A DNA stretch of 64,000 nt from Acanthamoeba lenticulata. Taxonomy: Eukaryota > Discosea > Longamoebia > Acanthamoebidae. A program made the position numbers and the translations under genes. The stretch is taken from positions 21,344-85,343 of the forward strand of contig NAVB01001151.1 of the NCBI GenBank assembly GCA_002179805.1, read 5' to 3'. Of the stretch, positions 11,548-63,870 are shown in pieces. The notes under the pieces are model-generated. The model was not told the origin of the DNA, ran no database searches, and saw only the letters and a list, made by a program, of their open reading frames with translations. Numbering within the stretch: the stretch's first letter is position 1; each line of letters starts with the position of its first letter.

Positions 11548-14500
11548 TCATGATCGTTCGGGCTGGGGAGACATGGCGAAGCTGTCCAAGCCAGTGAAGA
11601 GGTCGTTGGGGATGGTCTGGATGTTCTGGGAGAGGAGCCGGCTGTTGAAGAGGGCGCTTGTCAATGGCGGCTGCTCCGGGTCCTTCTTCCCCTCCTCTTC
11701 CTTTTTCTTCTTGTTCCTGCGGCGACGCAACGCGAGCAAGGCCGCGCCAAAGATGCAGCAGCAGCAGGCCAGCAGCGCCAAGGCCACGGGGATGCCCGCC
11801 CCCGCCGCGATCACGATCGTACTCCCGCTTGACGTCGCTGTTACCACGCCCAAGAACATGCACATGAGCGACTTGTGCAACAGAAGGAAAAGAAAAGAAC
11901 GAGAGTAAGAGAGAAAGAGACAACGACGTACCAGCGCTTGCGACGATCAAGCCCGGCGTGGGCGAGGTGGTGCGCGTGGGTGATGGAGACCTTGAGCGCG
12001 AGGGGGAAAGCGAAGGCGTGATTGACGGCGAGGCCGAGCGCGAGGGCGTTCGTGTTGGGCTGACCGACCGCGTGGGCGTGCTCGAAGGCGAGACGGACGG
12101 CGAGGGCGTGCCGGTGGGCGACTGCGAGCTCGTGGGCGACCTGGTGGCCGACGATGACGGAGTCGTGGTCGACGTCGTGGTGGCAGTCGCCGATGGCGTG
12201 ACTGTTGGCGAAGTGCTCGGAGAGGACGACGGCGAGTTGGTGGGCGACATCGTGGGCGAGGGCGTCGTGGACGGCGAGCTGGTCGGCGAATTGGTGCTCG
12301 AGGATGAGGGCGAGGGCGTTGACGTCGTGGTCGGCGTCACCGACGGCGAGTTGGAGGGCGAATTCGTTGGGGAAAAGGACGGCGTCTGCGTGGGCGAGAA
12401 GGTCGGGGACGATGTTGACGACGGCGACTGCGTGGGCGAAGCCGTGGGGGACTGGGAAGGCGACGGTGTTGGTGTTGACGTCGGCGTCGACGAGCAGCTG
12501 GGCGAGGGCGAGGCTGTGGGCGAGACCGTGGAAGACGGCGAAGGCGTGCTCGTCGGCGTCACCGTCGGCGTGACGGACGAGCTGGGCGAAGGGGTTCGTG
12601 TGGCAGAGGGCGTGGGCGTCGAGGTGGGCGAACGAGAAGGCGACTGGGTGACCGACGGCGAGGACGACGATGACGGACTGGGTGATCGCGTTGGCGTGGG
12701 TGTTGAGGTGCTGGTCGGTGAGGGAGACATCGACGATGAAGGCGATGGCGTTGGCGACGGTGTCGTGGTTGAAGACGAGGATGGGGAGCTCGTTGGCGAC
12801 TGAGAAGGTGACGACGTCGGCGTCGGCGTTGGCGAGGCGGAGGCGCTAATCGATGGTGAAGGTGTGAGCGAGACCGAAGTCGTGGGCGAGGGCGTGGTGG
12901 TCGGCGTCGAGGTCGACGTCGATGAAGGCGATGATGTTGGCGATGCCGTCGAAGAAGGCGACGTCGTTGGGGTGACAGTCGACGTTGGGCTGGACGACGT
13001 CGACGGCGAGACCGAAGGCGTCGAGGTGGGAGATGGCGTGGGCGTCGAGGTAGGCGAACTAGAAGGCGACTGCGTGGTCGATGGCGTGGGCGACGACGTT
13101 GGAGACTGCGTCGAAGACGGCGATGCCGTCGGTGTGACGGTCGGCGTTGGGCTGAAGGAGGCAGAAGGCGATGCGGTGGGCGATGGCGTCGGCGTCAGGC
13201 TCGGAGGGGCCGAGACCGAGGGTGTAACAGAAGAGGACGGATTCGGGCTACTCGGCGGGGACATCGAGACGCTCACGGTCGGTGAAGCGGACAAGCTCGC
13301 TGATGTTGAGGGCGTGGGAGAGAAGGAGGACGTGGTGGAAGGCGTCGCCGTCGAAGTGGGCGACGAGGTGGGCGACGGACTCGGTGTCCGGCTCGACGTG
13401 GCCGAAGGGGAAGTCGACGGCGTCGGCGTCCGGCTTGCCGTCACCGACAGCGTCGGTGACCTCGTCGGCGAGTTGGACGGCGTCGGCGATGGCGTCGGCG
13501 TGACCGACGGCGTGACGGACGGTGTAGGAGAGTTGGTCGGCGTGATCGACGGTGTGGGCGTGGGCGACGGAGGCACGTAGCACTGATTGACCGAGTAGCG
13601 CGTGGACAACACGGTGTTGTCGGAGCCGCCTGTCGTTTCCGCCACACATGAGCATCATCGAGGAATCGTCAAAGGACACACACACACGCAAGGCCGGATC
13701 TCGTACTGGTGTCGGTGATGTTGGCCAGCGCGTAGTAGCTCACGAGGTAGATGTTGCTCGAGATGACCGTCTTCCGCTCGGGAGGCGAGAAGTAGAGGAG
13801 GTACGCAAACTGGACCGACGTGTCTGTGGCGGTGAAGCTGGTGATGTAGATCTGGAACCAGGTGTCCATGACTTCCGCCATCCGGGTCATCAGTTGGTTG
13901 TACAGCTGCCCCGTCCCCCACAAGCGTGAGCGGCCCACACAAGATCCATTTCTTCGAAGAGGGACGACGTACATCGTTTTGCGTGCCGAGGCTGCCGAAC
14001 GGGACGTCGGTGTCGTACACTGCGGAAAAGCTCTGCAGGCACTGGCCGTCGACCAGCGGCGTCGTCGAAGGGGTGGAAGAGATCGAAGGCGTGGGCGAGG
14101 ACGTGACCGACGGCGAGGGCGAAACGGTCGGTGTCGTGGTCGGCGTGACGGAGCTCGTGGGCGACTGCGTCGGGCTCGTGGTCGCCGATGGCGAAGGCGT
14201 CGCCGAGGAGCTCGGCGTGATCGACGGCGTGCGCGTGCTCGTGGGCGACGTCGACGGTGTCGGGGTCGAGGTCCGCGAAACCGACGGCGTGACCGAGATC
14301 GAGGGTGTGATGGAGGACGTGGGCGACACGGTAGGCGTCTGCGAGGGCGTAGGCGAAGTCGTCGGCGTGTTTGTCGCCGTGATCGACGGCGTGGCCGTGA
14401 TGGAAGGCGTGACCGACGCGGACGGCGAGTTGGTCGGGCTGGTCGTCGAGGTCGGGCTGGGCGTGCGCGTGCTTGATGGCGTGGGCGTGGAGGTCGGCGA

Positions 14501-15975
14501 TGGTGTCCGCGTCGGGGAAGGCGTACGCGTGCTCGAAGGTGTCGCCGTCATTGTTGGGGTGGACGTGCGAGTCGGGGACGAGGTCGGTGTGACCGTGCGC
14601 GTGGGAGACGGGGTCACCGAGATCGTCGGCGTGATCGACGGCGTCACCGAGATCGTGGGCGTGATCGAGCGCGAGGGGCTGTTGCTCGGGGTGTTGGAGG
14701 GCGTCACGGAGATAGTCGGCGTAATCGACGGTGTCACCGAGATCGTGGGCGTTATGCTGGGCGTGACCGATATCGTCGGCGAGTTCGAAGGCGTCATCGT
14801 CGGCGTTATGGTGGGCGTGCGTGAAACCGACGTCGAGGGCGTCGAGGATCGCGTGGGCGTGGGCGTCACCGTCGGCGACGGAGATGGAGTCAGCGATGTC
14901 GACGGGGTGGGCGAGCTCGTGGGGCTCGGTGTGGGAGTCGGCGTCGAAGTGATGGACGATGAGGGAGACGGCGTCGGCGTCTGCGAGGCGGTGGGCGTTG
15001 GGGTCAATGACGCCGTGGCAGACTGCGAAGCTGACGGTGAAAGCGACGGCGTGACGGAGATGGACGGCGTTGGGGTGATGGAGGAAGACTTGGAGGCAGA
15101 CGGCGACAAGGAAACGGACGGCGACGGCGACGGCGAAAGGGAAGAGGAGGCCGAGGCCGAAGGCGAGTTGGTCGGTGAGATCGAGATGGAGGGAGAGCTC
15201 GTGGGCGTGATCGATGGCGAGGAAGATATGGTCGGTGTGGTGCTGATTGTGGGCGTGGCCGACGGCGTCCACGACGCACTCGGGGACAACGTGGGCGTTG
15301 TGCTGATCGTCGGCGTAGAAGAGCGTGAGGGGGACGGCGAAGGAGACATGCATGACGCCGAGAAAGTGGTTCTTGTTGTGATGATCCCGGCGATGGTGGC
15401 GCAGATGATGGACATGACGTCGTTGTTGATTGCGCCAATCTCTGCGTGGCTCGTGTGAGCGAGTAGAACTTTGCACCGTACACTCGAGTGACCACGTACC
15501 GATCCTCTTGGACGACGTGGAGACGTAGGCGCTGTCAAAGATCACGTAGCTGAAGTTGGCGCTTCCGGCTTGCTGGTAAAACACCAGCGCATTGTTCCAA
15601 TTGTAGCTGCACACGGCGCGAAAGAGCACCAACCCGGGGTGAGCAAGTGCATTGGGCGGAGCGGGAGCTCGAGTGAAGTGGGGAGGGGCGGGGACGAGCG
15701 TCGTACGATGGGCCGAAGAGAGCGCTGACTGAGTAACGGGCAGAGAGCAAGCTCTCCACGGTCGAGAGGGGTGTGTTGGGGATCAGATCTGTGGACGTGC
15801 ATGACGCGCCCACCGCCAAGCTGCAGTTGAGCTGCGCGTTCACCGCAGCTAGCGGCAGAGAAGAAAAAAGTCAGTTGACCATCATGGTTGGGCTTGCCAA
15901 AACTACAAAGACGGGTGTACCCGCAGTGAGCAAGCAAAGCACTGCCAACCGGACAACTGAGGCGAGCGAGGGCAT
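11548..15975 (-). CDS. Secreted/type I membrane mucin-like protein with two Pro/Ser/Thr stalks and a SEA-like domain
   Basis: The start ATG at 15975 encodes a signal peptide ([18 protein letters not shown]). A short intron (donor at 15920) leads in phase to [16 protein letters not shown]. After a small N-terminal domain (about 15840-15500), a stalk of roughly 430 residues is built of SPTPT/SVTPS-type units (about 15350-14060). A compact domain of about 110 residues follows (about 14040-13590: [50 protein letters not shown]). A second stalk of about 540 residues (13580-11960) ends in a hydrophobic helix ([20 protein letters not shown]) and a basic tail RRRRNKKKK. Family knowledge: Pro/Ser/Thr stalks of this kind are usually O-glycosylated and hold binding domains away from the membrane. 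The middle domain has SEA-like spacing; that is inference. The antisense strand carries long spurious ORFs. Confidence 0.8.
11960..13575 (-). repeat. Pro/Ser/Thr-encoding tandem repeat (membrane-proximal stalk)
   Basis: Degenerate short-period repeat, read on the minus strand as TCGCCC/ACGCCG-type codons for SPTPS, VTPT and SPS units. It is strongly strand-asymmetric: G and GT dominate the plus strand (ggcgtgggcga, gtcggcgtg). It lies within the coding sequence of the mucin-like gene and is probably length-polymorphic. Confidence 0.85.
14050..15350 (-). repeat. Pro/Ser/Thr-encoding tandem repeat (distal stalk) with 10-residue units
   Basis: Second repeat block of the mucin-like gene. It is mostly degenerate SPS/TPT units, but about 14600-14800 contains a more regular sub-array of about 30 bp per unit encoding variants of [10 protein letters not shown]. 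The near identity of these units points to recent expansion or recombination. Confidence 0.85.
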
Positions 15976-16331
15976 GGCTAGCCAGCGTCTTCTAGTGTTG
16001 GCTTCTGGGGGTAAGAGTGGGTGGTGAGGTGATGATTATTGAGGTAATGTCCTTTGGCTTAAGCTCCTGGGACAGAGCGCTATTGCATAAAAGCAACCTT
16101 GTTGCACTCAGTTGTGAGGTTACGTTGCTACGTGCATATACCTTAAGTGTACAAGTGCGTTCTTTTGGCGTTGGCTGCCATGCGACGGACATGGACACCA
16201 AAAAAACAAAATTATTTCACGGACACCAAAAAAATAAAAGAAAGGGATTGAAAATACGGACGAAGAAAAGAAGGAAAAAGCAACTGCAGCCACGTAGCCG
16301 CACATCAGCATTTGTGGAGGGGGCTCGCACC

Positions 16332-54927: not shown

Positions 54928-57900
54928 ATGGAGCCCGCAAAGCGGCTTACCACTCTGGCCGTCCTGTGCTTCCTCTGCGCTCTCTGTTGTCTTCTTCTAC
55001 CTCACTCAGCCAATGGTTTGTGTTCCTTTACTTTCCTCGTCTCCTCGTTTCTGTTGTCTTATTCCCGTCTGGGCTGACAACGTTTCAACTTGGTGTACCC
55101 AACTTCCAGCATCTTTGACAACTCGCCTCTATGGAGACGGTTCCGCCCTTCCACGCGTCCTCTTGCAAGCGTGGGCTGACCGCTACACCTATGTCCGAGA
55201 TGACGTGAGGTACAAATCAAAACGTTTTTTGGTCCTGTTCGCAACCTCAACACTCACACGTCATATGATCTCGGTGACCTTTGTGTCTTGAATTTTGTGG
55301 CCATAGTGTGTCCTACCCGGGCACCAACATCAGCTCCGCCTTGGTCCAGTACCAGCGCCGTTCCCTGGTTCGTTCTTCTCCCCTTTCGTCTCTTGTCCCA
55401 AAATATTATGAAACAAGACTCCCATGGCCTCAACATTGCAACAACTGCATTTTATAGCTCCGAGACGACCAACTCTATGATGCTTTTATCAACCAGGTAG
55501 ACTGATCGTTCCTCCCTTGTGATATGTTGCACATGTTCATTTTTACAGGACTTTGTTGCTGTGGATACCCCCATGTCGGCCGCCGCTGCCGAACAGTACG
55601 GCGGCCTGGTCCAGTTTCCCCTCTATGGCCAGGCCATGGTGTTGAGTTACAACATCGACGGCCTCAACACCACAACTGCCCGTCTCGTACGTCTACCCGG
55701 CCGGCCATTTATTTATTGATTTACTAATATCTTCTCTTTTTTTTTTTCTCAGAACCTATCGCGAGAGGCGGTGGGGCTCATCTGGACCGGCGGGATCGTC
55801 CAGTGGAACGACTCACGCATCCAGGCCCTCAACCCGGGCGTCAAGCTGCCCGAGGTCAACATCACGCTGGGCTTCAACGACAACACGGTCCTCTCGTCTT
55901 CGGAGAGTTTCAAGCGCGCGGTTTCTTCCTTCAGCGAGCCGTTCCGAGAGGCCCTCGACGCGGCCAACAACTCGTTCACGGGCCTGCAGCCCGCGATCGA
56001 CGGCCGGGCCACCGAGATCGGCCTCACCAGCAACCGCGTGCTCTGGGTCAAGGTGCGCTCTCGTGGCCTCTGCCCTGGTTTTTTTGCTCCTCGCAAGGAC
56101 GACCCAAAGCTGATGTGCCGTGTGTGTGCTCGACGCAGGCCACAAGGAACTGCATGACGTTCCTCACCCTCAAGGACAGCGTTTCGGCGGGCCTGCCCTT
56201 CGCCAATATGTACAACAAGGCCGGGCATCTGGTGTCGCCCGGCGTGACCTCGGTGCAGGCGGCCATGGCCAACTTCGCCTCCAACTTTAGCTCGGGCGAC
56301 CTCACCATGCTGATTGGCGATGCGCCCGGCGACGCCTCGTGGCCGATGGCCTACATCACCTACATCCTGCTCAACCGTAGCATCACCGTCGCGGACTGCA
56401 CCAACATCGAGCAGCTCATCCGGTTCATCGCCTGGATCCAGACCAACGACGCGTACGTCCTCGTTCTTCACTCGCCGCTCGGCCTTTGTCCTGACGACCC
56501 TTGGCCGCGACTCGCACAGGGCGTCGACGCTGGCGTCGAGCAATGGCTACGTGCCTATCGACGTGAGTCTGCGCAAGAACATCCTCGACCTCTTTGACCA
56601 GATCCAGTGCAACGGCGAGCTGGCCCTCAACACGTCGTACCTCATCGGCGCCGGCCCGGCGCTGCCCATCTACACGGCGTGGAGCATGGGCCAGTCGACC
56701 AACCAGGCCACGGTCAAGTACTACGAGGCCTCCGAGTCCCAGGCCAAGCTGCAGCTCATCAGCTTCGACGAGCACTTTGGCACCACGAGCGAGGGCCTGT
56801 CGTCCACTTGGCGGGAGCAGGTCCCGGACATGGCCCTCATGCCGGCCGTCATCTACGGCCTCGTGCCCGGTACGTCTCGCATGCAGCCGATCTCCAGTGC
56901 CTCGTCGATCGATCTTCTGACCTGTTCTGCGCGCAGTTTACAACTTGGCGTCCCTGGCCGCGCAAGGGCTCGAGCTGGTGCTCGACTTTGACACCCTGGC
57001 AGGCATCTACCTGGGCGAGATCACGACCTGGAACGACGCTCGCATCCAGGCCATCAACTCCAATGCCACGGCCCTGGCCTTGCCCAACTCGCCCATCATC
57101 GTCGCCGCCGAGGCCGAGAGCTCGGCCATCACGACGCTCTTCACCACCATGCTCAACGCCACGGTGAAGGCGTTTGCCGACCGTGTGGGCGTGCGCGACG
57201 TGGCCGACTTTGTCCAGGCCCTCAACCAGTCCGTCACGACGGCCAACTACTCGGCCCTCGTGTCCAAGCTAGCCGATCAGGCCGGCAGCTTTGGGTTCGT
57301 CGACCGCTACGACGCTCTCTTGGTACGCCCTAAGCCAGATCCCTTCCCGCGTGGGAGGGGGGGAAGGCGAGCAGCTTGATGACTGATCCTCCGTGTCTCT
57401 TATGGCTGCAGTCGCCGAGTCTGGTCGCGGCGAGCCTGTACAACCAGGCGGGCAAGGTGGTGAGCGCCAACGCCACCACAATCCAGTCGGCCCTCACCCA
57501 CTACCTCGATGATACCGCCGAGCCCGACTACTCGGGCATCGTCCTCAGTACCGCCACCCGCCCGCGCGGTTTTTTGGATGATTTTTACTTTAATTTTTTA
57601 AATTATTTTTTGTTTTCTGAAATGCAACAGGCGACGGAGAGGACAGCTGGCCGCTGGCCGCGTTTGGCTCGTTCATCTATCGCAGCCAGTCCATGCAGGA
57701 CTGCGGCGCCGCGGAGGCGCTGGCCAACTTTTTCTACTACACGCAGACCGACGATGACGCCAGGCGCGCGGCCGACCGCCAGGGCTTCCTCCGGGCGTCG
57801 AGCGACGACACACTGCGGCGCCAGTTCCTGAACCAGCTCAAGGCCTTCACGTGTGATGGCGTGGCGGTCAGCTCCGTGGCCGGTTGCATCAACGACGGCG

Positions 57901-60900
57901 AGCTCTGCTCTGGCATGGGCACCTGCGCCAGCGGGACTTGTGTGTGCAACAGCGGGCGGACGGGGACCTACTGCGAAAACTTGGTCTCGTCGAGCTCGGG
58001 CACCGACGTCTCTACGATCGTCCTTGGTTCGTCTTCCCCCCCCCCCCGTCCAAGGTTTGCGGCTTCACCTCACGCTGCTGACCGTTTCGCTTTTCGTTCT
58101 TTGCTCGTTTTTCGTTCTTTGGGGGAACGTGCAGCCGTGGTGATCCCGACGGCGGCCGTCGTGCTGCTGGTGATGCTCTGTATCGCGCTCGCGCTCTTCC
58201 TCGCCTTCCGCCTGCGCGGCAACCAGACCGACGACTGGGAAATCGACTACACCGAGCTCGAGGTGGGCGAGCAGCTCGGAGCTGGCGGCTACGGCGCTGT
58301 GCACCGGGCTGTGTGGAAGGGCACCGACGTGGCCGTCAAGGTCATGGCGGCCGAGAAGATCACCAAGGACATGGAGAAGAGCTTCCACGACGAGGTCCGC
58401 GTGATGACCTCGCTCCGGCACCCGAACGTCGTCCTTTTCATGGCCGCTTCGACCAAGCCGCCCAAGATGTGCATCGTCATGGAGTTCATGGCCCTCGGCT
58501 CGCTCTTTGACCTTCTCCACAATGAGCTCATTCCGGACATTCCGTTCGTGCTCAAGGCCAAGATGGCCTACCAGGCGTCCAAGGGCATGCACTTCCTCCA
58601 CTCGTCGGGCATCGTCCACCGCGACCTCAAGTCGCTCAACCTCCTGCTCGACGCCAAGTGGAACGTCAAGGTTTCGGACTTTGGCCTCACCAAGTTCAAG
58701 GAGGACGTCCAGAAGGGCGGCGGCGGCGCACATAAGCTCGCCGGAAGCGTGCACTGGACCGCGCCCGAGGTGCTCAACGAGAGCGGCGAGGTGGACTTGA
58801 TCCTGGCCGACGTCTACAGCTTCGGCGTCATCCTGTGGGAGCTGCTCACGCGCGAACAGCCCTACCTGGGCATGAGCCCCGCGGCCGTGGCCGTGGCCGT
58901 CATCCGGGACAACATCCGGCCGGTCATGCCCGAGGAGCCGTCGTGCCCGCCCGAGTACGAGCAGCTCATTACAAGCTGCTGGCACACGGACCCGATCATC
59001 CGCCCGACCTTCCTCGAGATCATGACCCGCCTGTCGTCCATGCACGGCGACTCGGCCTCGGGCGGCGCGACCTCCTTCACCTCCAAGACCTCGTCGTCGT
59101 CCTCTGGCGGCGTCGGCGGCTCGGAGCCGTCGACCGGAGGCAAGGCACTGCGGACGGGCGGCCTGTACAGCTCGTGGACGCTGCCCTCCACGGCGGGCTC
59201 GACGTCGACCGGCTCCTCTTCGTCGTCCGGCACCAACGCGTCCAAGAACCTTTCGGCGGCGCAGGCGGCCGGCGGCGGCGTGAGGGCGCCCGAGGGCGAG
59301 GTTGCCATCGTGTTTGCCGACATCACGCGCGCGGCCTCGCTGTGGGAGTTCAACCCGTCGGCCATGCGCGACGCCACGGTGGCCCACAACGAGACCCTCC
59401 GGGCGGTGCTCAAGCGGCACCGCGGCTACGAGGTCGTTTTCCTGCGCGACCGCAACAGTGGCGAGGGCTCCTTCTGCATGGCCTTCCAGCACGCTACCGA
59501 CGCCGTGGCCTGGTGCAGCGACGTGCAGCGCGCGCTGCTCAAGGTCGAGTGGCCCGAGGCGCTGCTCGACCACCCGGGCGCGGCCGAGGAGTGGGGCGAC
59601 ACCGACGACCGGGTCCTGTTCAAGGGCCTGCGCGTGCGCATGGGCGTCCATGTGGGCACACCGCGCATGGTGCGCGACCCAATGACGCGGCGCGTGGAGT
59701 ACATCGGCCCGGTGGTCAACGCGGCGGCGCGGATCACCGCCCTCACCCACGGTGGCCAGATCGTGCTCAGCCACGCCGCCCGCGACAAGCTCCTCGCCGG
59801 CGAGGCCGACGCGGCCGGCAGCTGGGCGAATCGCATGGTGTCGCTCGGGCGATTCGAGATGCCCGACGTGCCCACGGGCGCGCGCCTGTACGAACTCAAG
59901 GTCGAGGGCCTCGAGGCGCGCTTCTTCGGCGGCGTGACCCACGAGGGCGACACCAACTCAACGGACTCGCCCTCGGGCGACGGCAAGCAGAAGCAGGGCG
60001 GCAGCCACGCCTCGACGGCCTCCAACGACGGTGACGGCCGAGGCGGGAACGAGACCATCCAGACGGCCGTGGGCGAGGGCATGATGTTCAAGGAGGACAC
60101 GTTCCTCACATCGGCCAACCTGTGCCGGTGGATCATCGACTTCCACGAGATCCAGGTGGGCAAGCAGGTCGGTCTCGGCTCCTACGGCGTCGTCTACCGC
60201 GGCAAGTGGAAGGGCGTCGACGTGGCCGTGAAGCGGTTCATCAAGCAGAAGCTCGACGAGCGGCGCATGCTCGAGTTCCGCGCCGAGATGGCCTTCTTGT
60301 CCGAGCTGCACCACCCCAACATCGTGCTCTTCATCGGCGCCTGCGTCAAGAAGCCCAACCTGTGCATCGTGACCGAGTTCATGAAGCAGGGCTCGCTGAG
60401 CGAGATCCTCGGCAACAGCACCATCAAGCTCGTGTGGAAGCAGAAGTTGCGCATGCTCCGGTCGGCGGCACTCGGAATCAACTACCTTCACTCGCTCCAG
60501 CCGGTCATCGTGCACCGGGACCTCAAGCCCTCCAACCTGCTCGTGGACGAGAACTGGAACGTGAAGGTGGCCGACTTTGGCTTTGCGCGCATCAAGGAGG
60601 AGAACGCCACCATGACCCGCTGCGGCACGCCCTGCTGGACTGCGCCCGAGATCATCCGCGGGGAGAAGTACGACGAGCGGGCCGACGTGTTCTCCTTCGG
60701 CGTCGTCATGTGGGAGGTGCTGACGCGCAAGGAGCCCTTCGCTGGACGCAACTTCATGGGCGTTTCGCTCGACGTGCTCGAGGGCAAGCGGCCACAGATC
60801 CCAGGCGACTGCCCGGCCGACTACCGGAAGCTGATGAAGAAGTGCTGGCACGGGTCTGCTGACAAGCGGCCCAAGATGGAAGAGGTTGTGGCCTTCTTTG

Positions 60901-60950
60901 ATGCCCAGATTGGCGACGACGATGCAGCGGCCACTGGCTTGGCCGTGTAG
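54928..60950 (+). CDS. Receptor: tandem PstS-like domains, EGF, transmembrane, kinase, nucleotide cyclase, kinase
   Basis: ATG at 54928; signal peptide LAVLCFLCALCCLLLPHSAN. The ectodomain holds two PstS-type solute-binding halves: GLIWTGGIVQWNDSRIQALN and IYLGEITTWNDARIQAINSN are the conserved PstS G-x-I-x-x-WND motifs. An EGF-like knot (CSGMGTCASGTCVCNSGRTG) precedes a transmembrane helix (AAVVLLVMLCIALALFLAF). Kinase 1: GAGGYGAV, VAVKVM, HRDLKSLN, DFGLTK, APEVL. Nucleotide cyclase homology domain: EVAIVFADITRAASLWEFN, VRMGVHVGTPRM, VVNAAARITALTHGGQIVLS. Kinase 2: GLGSYGVV, VAVKRF, HRDLKPSN, DFGFAR, APEII. Both kinases keep Lys, HRD and DFG and look TKL/MAPKKK-like. About 12 introns, all before the large last exons. 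The ligand (phosphate?) is unproven. This architecture is typical of an expanded Acanthamoeba family. Confidence 0.9.
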
Positions 60951-61063: not shown

Positions 61064-63870
61064 ATGCGAACGGCGAGGTTGGTGTCGGTGGGTGGCGCGG
61101 CCTCCTGCTTGGGCAGGAGAGGAACACAAAGTGGCTGCTTGGCACAAACACTGCTACGTTCGCGTGCATCACTCTTTCCTGTGGAACGAAGACAGGCCTG
61201 GGCACCGGTCGTGATTTGCATTCGCACCACTCGGCCGTCAACGATTAGGACCTCATCTGGACCCACAATACTCCCAAGGCGATTTGGCCACACTGCCGCT
61301 ACCGCTGCATCTGCGGCGAGCAAGGTACGCCACCAAGCAAAAAATAAATAAATAAATAAACAAACATAAAGGCCATTTTTCAGTTTTTGGCTTCCCGTAT
61401 TTTTCTCAGCTTGTGGCGACTAAAGGATTGATCGTCATCTCATCTCTCCATACGTCAGTTGCGATACCCACACATAATGGAAGCTCAGCAGCAAGTAAAG
61501 GCTAACACTGATCCCTTCTACAAGGTGAGCGCCGACGAAGAGCACTTTGAAAGCATCTCGATTTGTGATTTTCACATTTTCTCTTATCCATCACCAGTTC
61601 AAGTGGGCCATCGCCGAACAGGTAACTGCTCATACGGGCGTTTCGCCTGAGCAGGCCATTGATGCTGTGGAGATCCCCAAAAAGGACGGCGTCGCCGATT
61701 TCTCCCTGTGCGTAGCCAAGCTCAACCGCTACACCAAGCTGAAGGGCAAGCCGGCGGACGTTGCTGTCGCATGGGCTGATGCGGTGCGTTAACTGCCGGA
61801 AACGTTCTCTAGGTCATGGCCTTACATTTAACGCCCCAAACAAACACACTAGTTCACCCCAACCCCGCTCTTGACGAGCGCGAAGGCCGATGGACCTTAC
61901 TTGAACTTCAACGTGGACAAGATTCCGCTCGCTGAGGAGGTTTTGAAGATTGTTTACGCCTCGAAGGACGAGTGGGGTAATTCCGCTGACGGCAATGGCA
62001 AGACGATCGTTGTTGAGTACAGGTGAGTCTGCTTTCCCCTATTTCCGCCGAAATCAACGTGCTCATCTGACTGTCATGCACAGCTCGCCCAACATCGCCA
62101 AGCCGTTCCACTTTGGCCATTTGAGGTCGACCATGATTGGCAATTTCCTGCGTAATCTCTACAAGGCCCTTGGGTACAACGTCGTTGGCATCAACTACCT
62201 GGGCGACTGGGGCAAGCAATACGGTACCTTGGACCTACCCGAGCAGTGTGCAGGCACAACCCCTTAACTCACGTCAGCGCTTTTACTGTTGTGTGCAGGT
62301 CTGCTGGCGGTTGGCTTCAGCAAGTACGGCTCGGAGGAGGAGCTCGTGAAGAACCCCATTCGTCACTTGTATGACGTCTACGTGCAGATTAACAAGGTGA
62401 CGCCTCTGTCTGTCTCTTCTTCCGCGTTATCCCTTTCCTTAGCCAACATGATGAGCACTACATCCGAACTCTCGTGTGGATTAACACAAATTCGAGCTTT
62501 TTAAATCTGATAAAATCTTATCACTGTGATTGCTTCTTGAGCGCGCTTCAGCTCTTATCATTAACCGCATTCTTATTCCTGCAGGAAGCCGATGAAAACG
62601 AAGAGGTGGGTAAGGACATCCACGACCGGGCTCGTGCCTACTTCAAGAAGATGGAGGAGGGTGATCCCGAGGCGCTCGCCCTGTGGAAGAGGTTCCGCGA
62701 TCTGTCGATCGAGGAGTACAAGCAGCTCTACCAGCGCCTCAACGTCGACTTTGACGTCTACTCTGGCGAGTCCATGTTCAGCGAGGGGATGGTGGAAGCC
62801 GTCCAGCTCATGCAGGACAAGGGCCTCCTCGTCGAGGACAATGGCGCCCTCGTCTGCGATCTCTCGGTACGAGCTCTTCAGTCGCTGCACCGGGGTGGTG
62901 TGTGGCCATCACCTCACAGGTTCGTTGATGCAACGACCAACAGAAATACAAGTTGGGCAAGATCGTGATCAAGAAGTCGGACGGAACGACGCTGTACATC
63001 ACCCGTGATATCGCGGCTGCCATCTACCGCCAGAGGACCTACGGCTTCGACCAGATGTTCTACGTCGTGGGCTCGCAGCAGAACCTGCACTTCCAGCAGC
63101 TCTTCAAGATCCTCGAGCTCATGGGCTTTGACTGGGCCAAGAAGTGCACTCACATCAACTTTGGCATGATCAACGGCATGTCGACCCGTAAGGGCACGGC
63201 CAAATTCCTGTCGGACATCCTCGAGGCAGCGCAGGAGCTGATGTTAGAGAGGATGAAGGCCAACGAGTCCAAGATGAGCGAGATCACCGACCCCGAGAAG
63301 ACAGCCGACATTGTCGGCGTGTCGGCCGTGGTCGTGCAGGACTTTAGCGCCAAACGCATCAAGGACTACGCGTTCAACCTCGAGCGCGCCACGGCGGCCG
63401 AGGGTGACACGGGCCCCTACCTCCAGTATGCCCACGCGCGTCTCTCGTCGATGGAGCGCAAGAACGACATTCCCATCTCCGACGCTGTCAACTTCCAGCT
63501 CCTCAACGACAAGGAGGCGCTCGACCTCATGATGAAGCTCGCTCGCCTTCCCGAAGTCGTCAAGCGGGTAGCCGAGGAGAACGAGGCCTCGACCCTCGTC
63601 ACCTACCTCATGGTACGTTGTTGCCGAATTTTAAAATTTTAAAATTGTATATTTATATTTATATTTATTGTTTGTTCATGTCTGATAACAACAATCAACC
63701 AATCCCTACAGGACCTGTGCCACTCGATCTCGGCCGCCCACCGGGTACTGTGGGTCATGGGCCGTGAGCGTGACGTGGCCGAGGCGCGCATGCTGCTCTT
63801 CTGGGCCGCACGCAAGACCCTAGAGAACGGCCTCAAGATTTTGGGTCTCGCGCCCCTCCAGAGGATGTGA
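61064..63870 (+). CDS. RARS: Arginyl-tRNA synthetase, with in-phase upstream presequence exon
   Basis: The cytosolic start is ATG 61477 ([20 protein letters not shown]). Class I motifs: [20 protein letters not shown] (HIGH) and GMSTRKG (KMSKS-like). [24 protein letters not shown] segments, [40 protein letters not shown] and LGLAPLQRM at the end fix the identity. An upstream exon (ATG 61064 to 61324, 87 codons) ends at a GTACGC donor; the acceptor before 61459 continues in phase as [12 protein letters not shown]. That exon reads [19 protein letters not shown] and on, Arg/Ser/Ala-rich without early acids, as in mitochondrial presequences. So two starts could give mitochondrial and cytosolic forms. 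About eight introns. Confidence 0.9.
61325..61458 (+). other. Proposed alternative intron in the ArgRS leader
   Basis: Donor GTACGC after GAGCAAG and acceptor CGTCAG before TTGCGATACC. It is phase 0 on both sides, 134 bp, and contains an AAATAAATAAATAAATAA run. If unspliced or bypassed by a downstream start site, translation would begin at ATG 61477. Confidence 0.6.

Follow-up and report, generated by a model that had tools for sequence, protein, structure and literature searches.

Animal receptor guanylyl cyclases are known to carry a flytrap ectodomain of the ANF-receptor type, followed by a kinase homology domain and then a cyclase domain. A layout in which the cyclase is flanked by two Ser/Thr kinases, behind an extracellular domain and one transmembrane (TM) helix, has been described in amoebae, with a large family of 67 receptor nucleotidyl cyclases reported for Acanthamoeba castellanii in 2013 and the layout also ascribed to several giant viruses (PMC4053784). 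The paper on the cyclase kinases of Physarum polycephalum counted 43 in that organism and gave 66 for A. castellanii (PMC4758236). The available parts of these two accounts do not identify the ectodomain as PstS; the first holds no ligand-site analysis, and the second gives no description of the ectodomain of the Physarum proteins, whose likeness to the receptor reported here is one of description. The A. castellanii ectodomain may already have been annotated in the 2013 supplement (Figure S3.3.1). Published accounts of the family date back to 2013, and their available text names no ligand. Among titles and abstract openings on Acanthamoeba or amoebae with PstS or periplasmic binding, a PstS ectodomain is likewise not described, and PMC3429862 concerns other transporters.

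More distant systems share parts of this plan. The receptor adenylate cyclases of Trypanosoma brucei exhibit, in most members, two Venus-flytrap domains outside the cell, one TM helix, and a class III cyclase inside; their ligands are described as unknown, as in the receptor reported here, but their topology, as described in the available account, comes without kinase domains (PMC6027212). Venus kinase receptors share the Venus flytrap ectodomain, the single TM helix, and a kinase, and activation by L-arginine has been reported; unlike in the present receptor, a cyclase is not mentioned in the portion of the account at hand (PMC2680970).

The receptor gene studied here lies within a 64,000-nucleotide stretch of the Acanthamoeba lenticulata genome (the window; contig NAVB01001151.1, positions 21,344 to 85,343), and all coordinates below refer to the forward strand (+) of this stretch. 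A sequence-only reading of these letters had placed a single gene at 54928–60950, and these coordinates proved correct, with an ATG at 54928, a stop codon ending at 60950, and a spliced frame of 12 joined exons that stays open from start to stop (1714 a.a). The 11 introns (52–108 nt, all GT-AG) were positioned from splice signals and homology. The encoded chain comprises, in order, a signal peptide, two tandem PstS domains, an EGF-like knot, a TM helix, a kinase, a class III cyclase domain, and a further kinase. Exon 1 (nt. 54928–55015) provides the start codon and the signal peptide (hydropathy segment, residues 4–32), while the uninterrupted exon 12 (nt. 58135–60950) encodes the greater part of the TM helix and all of the kinase-cyclase-kinase region. 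Besides the signal peptide, the hydropathy scan of the chain returned one strong TM segment (residues 768–806, maximum 3.1; nt. 58020–58205, split by the intron at 58027–58134) and one weak segment within kinase 1. The EGF-like knot (residues ~730–759, nt. 57885–57974) matched PF23106 and PF07974 just above their cut-offs (EGF_Teneurin, 26.8 against 24.3; EGF_2, a bare pass at 22.4 against 22.1). The signal peptide, knot, and single helix proposed in the sequence-only reading are, as such, borne out by the hydropathy scan and Pfam. The receptor does not fit the animal receptor guanylyl cyclases, given that its ectodomain is of the PstS type and its cyclase is followed by another kinase.

Profile matches identify the ectodomain as two tandem domains of the PstS type (type II periplasmic-binding fold). 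Domain 1 (residues ~30–383; nt. 55015–56628 as computed from the gene model, starting at the end of exon 1 and reaching exon 8, introns included) matched TIGR00975 across profile positions 3–313 of 315 (E 1.1e-34, 119.9 bits), and domain 2 (residues ~384–721; nt. 56629–57860, exons 8–11, introns included) across positions 5–296 (E 2.3e-30, 105.8 bits), with an additional PF12849 match (E 2.3e-12). Both domains fall under the curated equivalog cut-off of TIGR00975 (205 bits), and Pfam PBP_like_2 (cut-off 27) was exceeded by domain 2 (47.7) and not by domain 1 (22.4). The two G-x-I-x-x-WND motifs that had first suggested PstS (GGIVQWND and GEITTWND) were found one per profile match. With domain 1 only as the query, 17 distinct PDB sequences were matched at E ≤ 0.1, all named phosphate-binding proteins (best E 6.7e-21); a protein search with the same domain alone matched five proteins, whereas one with residues 25–800 returned no match at E ≤ 0.001. 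Three rows from the domain 1 search (P0001–P0003) and E. coli PstS served as bacterial references. The receptor shares with bacterial PstS a nearly full-length family profile, matched twice, and the PDB matches of domain 1, but differs in being a tandem, membrane-anchored, and kinase-fused form below the equivalog cut-off that has lost phosphate contacts.

The phosphate site of PhoX is formed by Ser34, Ser62, Asp80, Arg159, Gly164, Thr165, and Asn201, and in E. coli PstS the equivalent Asp is described as the residue by which phosphate is told apart from other tetrahedral oxyanions (PMC5439949, available in part). We mapped these contacts by our own alignment to E. coli mature numbering as T10, S38, D56, R135, G140, T141, and N177, scoring either T or S as kept at the first position. 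Domain 1 of the window receptor retains one of the seven, the Asp at D56, with six changed, and domain 2 retains none, all seven being changed or missing; R135 is replaced by Asn in domain 1 and by Glu in domain 2. Across 21 receptor domains from 11 loci, the contacts were kept in 2 (T10), 10 (S38), 1 (D56), 1 (R135), 5 (G140), 1 (T141), and 2 (N177) domains, and the residues at ligand positions vary between receptor subfamilies. As controls, we used 45 loci with PstS pieces from a scan of viral contigs (viral_contigs), each with a PstS-type frame of 277–490 a.a; 44 showed all seven contacts and one showed six, and the key Asp and Arg were present in all 45, as opposed to one domain each among the 21. 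Eleven of the control frames (280–329 a.a) gave more than one alignment piece each, and we regard the pieces of each frame as a single domain whose match was split.

The loss of phosphate contacts appears to exceed general divergence, albeit with a modest contrast. The six invariant pocket columns were kept at 14%, compared to a mean of 35% for 77 non-pocket columns invariant in the four bacterial PstS (six at 95–100%, many near zero; permutation p 0.046). For this comparison, the pocket was presumed to consist of T10, F11, S38, D56, R135, S139, G140, and T141, of which the six invariant columns were used. Pocket residues in such divergent domains are alignment-dependent: two alignments disagreed on S38 for several rows and on D56 for L018_d1. 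L018_d1 was recut and kept and L038_d1 was kept, while L027_d1 and L027_d2 (near-copies of L022) were left out of the residue counts and of the tree below, along with eight further rows, most of them partial (L034, L042_x, L016, L012, L025, L026, L028, and L021). In an earlier alignment, both D56 and R135 were lost in seven of these eight; the remaining row, L042_x, is the intact domain of the C739 paralogue discussed below, re-entered with its other exons.

The receptor belongs to a large multigene family, answering the paralogue count that the sequence-only reading had proposed as a check. Profile searches of the genome returned 112 cyclase (PF00211) places and 131 exon-level PstS places, and a DNA pattern for the cyclase motif GEGSFC matched at 114 places compared to none for a reversed control. 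These cyclase lists include near-identical copies and overlap each other to an uncounted extent. Five compared pairs of near-identical copies shared 97.9–99.3% protein identity, and gene numbers are consequently lower than place numbers. At 74 of the 112 cyclase places, a PstS place was located on the same strand no more than 7 kb upstream, with 92 PstS places linked to a cyclase and 39 unlinked; the former figure rises to 83 with the inclusion of 22 places selected from the 150 of a second PstS search. Two of the remaining 29 cyclase places were inspected and both contained PstS pieces, and absences are weak here given that a profile search scores best candidates only. The tandem arrangement was present in those receptors with ectodomains readable in long frames. 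Neither of two scans of viral_contigs with the kinase-cyclase-kinase part as the query yielded a confirmed relative. The layout of the window receptor is not new, and the protein is a member of the published amoeba receptor family; what the present sequence comparisons would add is the PstS identity of the ectodomain across the family, evidence from a known site against phosphate as the ligand, and two paralogues in which that site appears to survive.

These two paralogues are C739 (L042:406-5960), whose domain 2 contains all seven phosphate contacts, and C1278 (L018; C1278:900-4718), whose domain 2 contains six. A DNA pattern for the canonical loop matched the genome no more often than its reversed control (27 matches each), and matches fell inside PstS matches only in C739 and C1278, with the proviso that intron-split loops would escape the pattern. 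The layout of C739 comprises two PstS domains, an EGF-like region and TM helix (both identified by eye), and one kinase, together with a weak HYDIN/ASH-type Ig-like match below the cut-off. No cyclase was found in C739 among the 112 PF00211 places or the listed GEGSFC places, and its frames of at least 90 a.a gave no match to the window cyclase at E ≤ 1; from these matches, C739 would be a receptor with one kinase and no cyclase. On its residues, C739 is a better phosphate-sensor candidate than the window receptor, and the strongest one here for a phosphate receptor in a eukaryote. For both C739 and C1278, the sensing of phosphate can be put forward as a genuine prediction, open to testing.

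In a tree of 29 domains, rooted by only four bacterial sequences, the 11 core domain-1 rows formed one group (100/98), which domain 1 of C739 and C1278 joined (98/94); a second group (99/97) was made up of the 10 core domain-2 rows. Domain 2 of C739 and C1278 instead made the earliest branching within the amoeba group and fell in neither domain group, a placement by which the best tree misfits a single tandem duplication. Forcing all 12 domain-2 rows together cost 4.7 log-likelihood units and was not rejected (p-AU 0.078). The slow evolution of intact domains may explain their position in the tree, a history more complex than one tandem duplication could also have produced it, and a single transfer from bacteria is plausible. 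One scenario from these sequences is that Acanthamoeba-like amoebae acquired a bacterial-type phosphate-binding domain, that a tandem doubling followed, and that the product multiplied into a set of dozens to ~100 surface receptors with ligand sites that diverged from phosphate, domain 2 of the early-branching C739 and C1278 keeping the site and C739 being a genuine eukaryotic receptor for extracellular phosphate. We rate this scenario at somewhat under an even chance, slightly lower than we would have without the tree placement. If true, it would represent a microbial counterpart of the odorant-receptor repertoire, built on PstS.

The intracellular part was as the sequence-only reading had proposed, with Pfam and motif matches supporting a kinase, a cyclase homology domain, and a kinase. 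Kinase 1 (nt. 58257–59040, ends approximate; one of two PF07714 stretches) displays GAGGYGAV, VAVK, HRDLKSLN, DFG, and WTAPE, and kinase 2 (nt. 60150–60893; PF07714 and PF00069) displays GLGSYGVV, VAVK, HRDLKPSN, DFG, and WTAPE, so that the G-loop, VAVK, HRDLK, DFG, and APE motifs expected of eukaryotic protein kinases each occur twice in the chain. The class III nucleotide cyclase homology domain (nt. 59289–59792) matched PF00211 (E 3.3e-10, 40.3 bits against a cut-off of 21.9), with the T. brucei GRESAG4.3 and GRESAG4.1 cyclases as the nearest solved structures (E 1.1e-20 and 7.5e-19, respectively). A regular expression for cyclase loops gave no matches, and the profile search was used in its place. 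We take the catalytic residues to be a first metal Asp, a transition-state Asn and Arg, and a second metal Asp in the hairpin. In an alignment of 11 rows, which excludes C36 (available in pieces only), the first metal Asp was kept in all 11, the Asn in eight, the Arg in eight, and both of the latter in seven; the window receptor has all three. At the place of the canonical second metal Asp, alignments put the motif GEGSFC (nt. 59460–59477) in a lengthened hairpin, with GEGSF in nine of the 11 rows, AEGTF in C155 (Glu kept), and no Glu in C258. The corresponding hairpin of the T. brucei cyclases is six residues shorter (VGD-SF) by pairwise alignment. Given the apparent replacement of the canonical Asp by GEGSF, a cyclic-nucleotide output of the window receptor is unproven from its sequence.

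Whether the ectodomain and the kinases belong to one chain, and whether the cyclase is active, can be weighed against the paralogues. The ectodomain and kinase part lie mostly on separate exons, as would be seen if an over-long gene model had fused a gene for a secreted double PstS with an adjacent one for a kinase-cyclase-kinase protein. However, C155 (L039) carries PstS, PstS, EGF-like, kinase, cyclase domain, and kinase uninterrupted within one open frame of 1703 codons, C36 (L043) carries the same order in 1650 codons (cyclase match weak), and the upstream same-strand PstS at 83 of the 112 cyclase places points the same way. We accordingly rejected the separate-gene reading, and a wrong fusion is very improbable, chiefly on account of C155. 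C258 (L041:1429-6831) likewise has the full series in an 1801-codon frame, with a degenerate cyclase region in place of the cyclase domain and no Pfam cyclase match there. A catalytically dead cyclase domain, leaving the receptor to signal through its two kinases only, is a serious contender that we consider somewhat less than evenly likely: GEGSF in a longer hairpin is common to most aligned rows (with the Glu also in C155), its DNA pattern is widespread in the genome, and the Asn and Arg are incomplete as a pair in several rows. Against this, the first metal Asp is invariant, the window receptor has both the Asn and Arg, the Glu could bind metal, and the nearest solved relatives are receptor-type adenylate cyclases. 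HMMER pairwise alignment with the latter also places another Asp, that of LRDR, on the canonical position, with the caution that this residue is E, N, or T in five of the 11 rows. The presence of active cyclases behind the large cyclase count of these amoebae is now in question.

Regarding the ligand, the earlier interpretation stood in part: a bacterial-type PstS ectodomain, two kinases, and a cyclase-type domain do appear in one chain, while phosphate as what the ectodomain senses was not upheld. We rejected the phosphate-receptor reading of the window gene on its contact residues, and given this loss the receptor probably binds and senses something other than phosphate. Continued phosphate binding by the domains, with other residues making the contacts, would agree with both PstS profile matches, with the Asp retained at D56 in domain 1, and with the two other genes in which the site is intact or nearly so, but is improbable considering the single contact left in domain 1, the lack of any in domain 2, the Asn and Glu at R135, and the complete or, in one case, near-complete sites of the control PstS. 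Lost contacts do not, however, prove that any ligand is bound, and the domains could serve as a scaffold only, for dimerisation or for adhesion (e.g., recognising bacterial surfaces or partner receptors). Such a role, which we regard as unlikely though less so than phosphate binding by other residues, is consistent with the disappearance of ligand contacts while certain structural positions (W111, N120, P73, P126, P251, and G8) are kept at 95–100% over the 21 domains. It sits less well with the preservation of both domains and with the purifying selection on ectodomains in the tested pairs of near-identical copies (dN/dS of 0.10 for L022/L027, 0.10 for L023/L024, and 0.099 for the L028/L030 frame). 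The differences between subfamilies at ligand positions are also those expected of changed ligands, though relaxed sites would give them too.

We favour, with reasonable though far from complete confidence, a type I membrane receptor whose PstS flytraps have a rebuilt ligand site, respond to a non-phosphate ligand, and drive a kinase output, as one member of a large chemosensory-style repertoire. Under this model, the domains would descend from a bacterial-type phosphate-binding domain with the ligand site subsequently rebuilt for a ligand other than free phosphate, plausibly an anion, a metabolite, or a bacterial product. Closure of the flytraps on the ligand would reorient a dimer of the receptor across the membrane such that its kinases meet, and phosphorylation would be the main output. 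The cyclase domain may either produce cyclic nucleotide via a modified metal site or act as a dimerisation or regulatory module. Treating the ectodomain as a rebuilt PstS tandem makes the ligand search concrete, in terms of which residues line which cleft, and cautions against labelling these receptors as phosphate sensors.

Some further observations were made on the copies and the surroundings of the gene. In the L022/L027 pair, the kinase tail gave a dN/dS of 0.69 (125 codons), in contrast to the ectodomain value above, perhaps due to a frame running into an intron that was read as coding. Elsewhere in the window, nt. 12001–16000 showed GC skews of +0.33 and +0.31 with GC contents of 0.66 and 0.64, unlike the adjoining stretches. 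Downstream of the receptor gene, the neighbouring frame matched the catalytic domain of arginyl-tRNA synthetase at nt. 61950–62267 (PF00750, E 3e-24).
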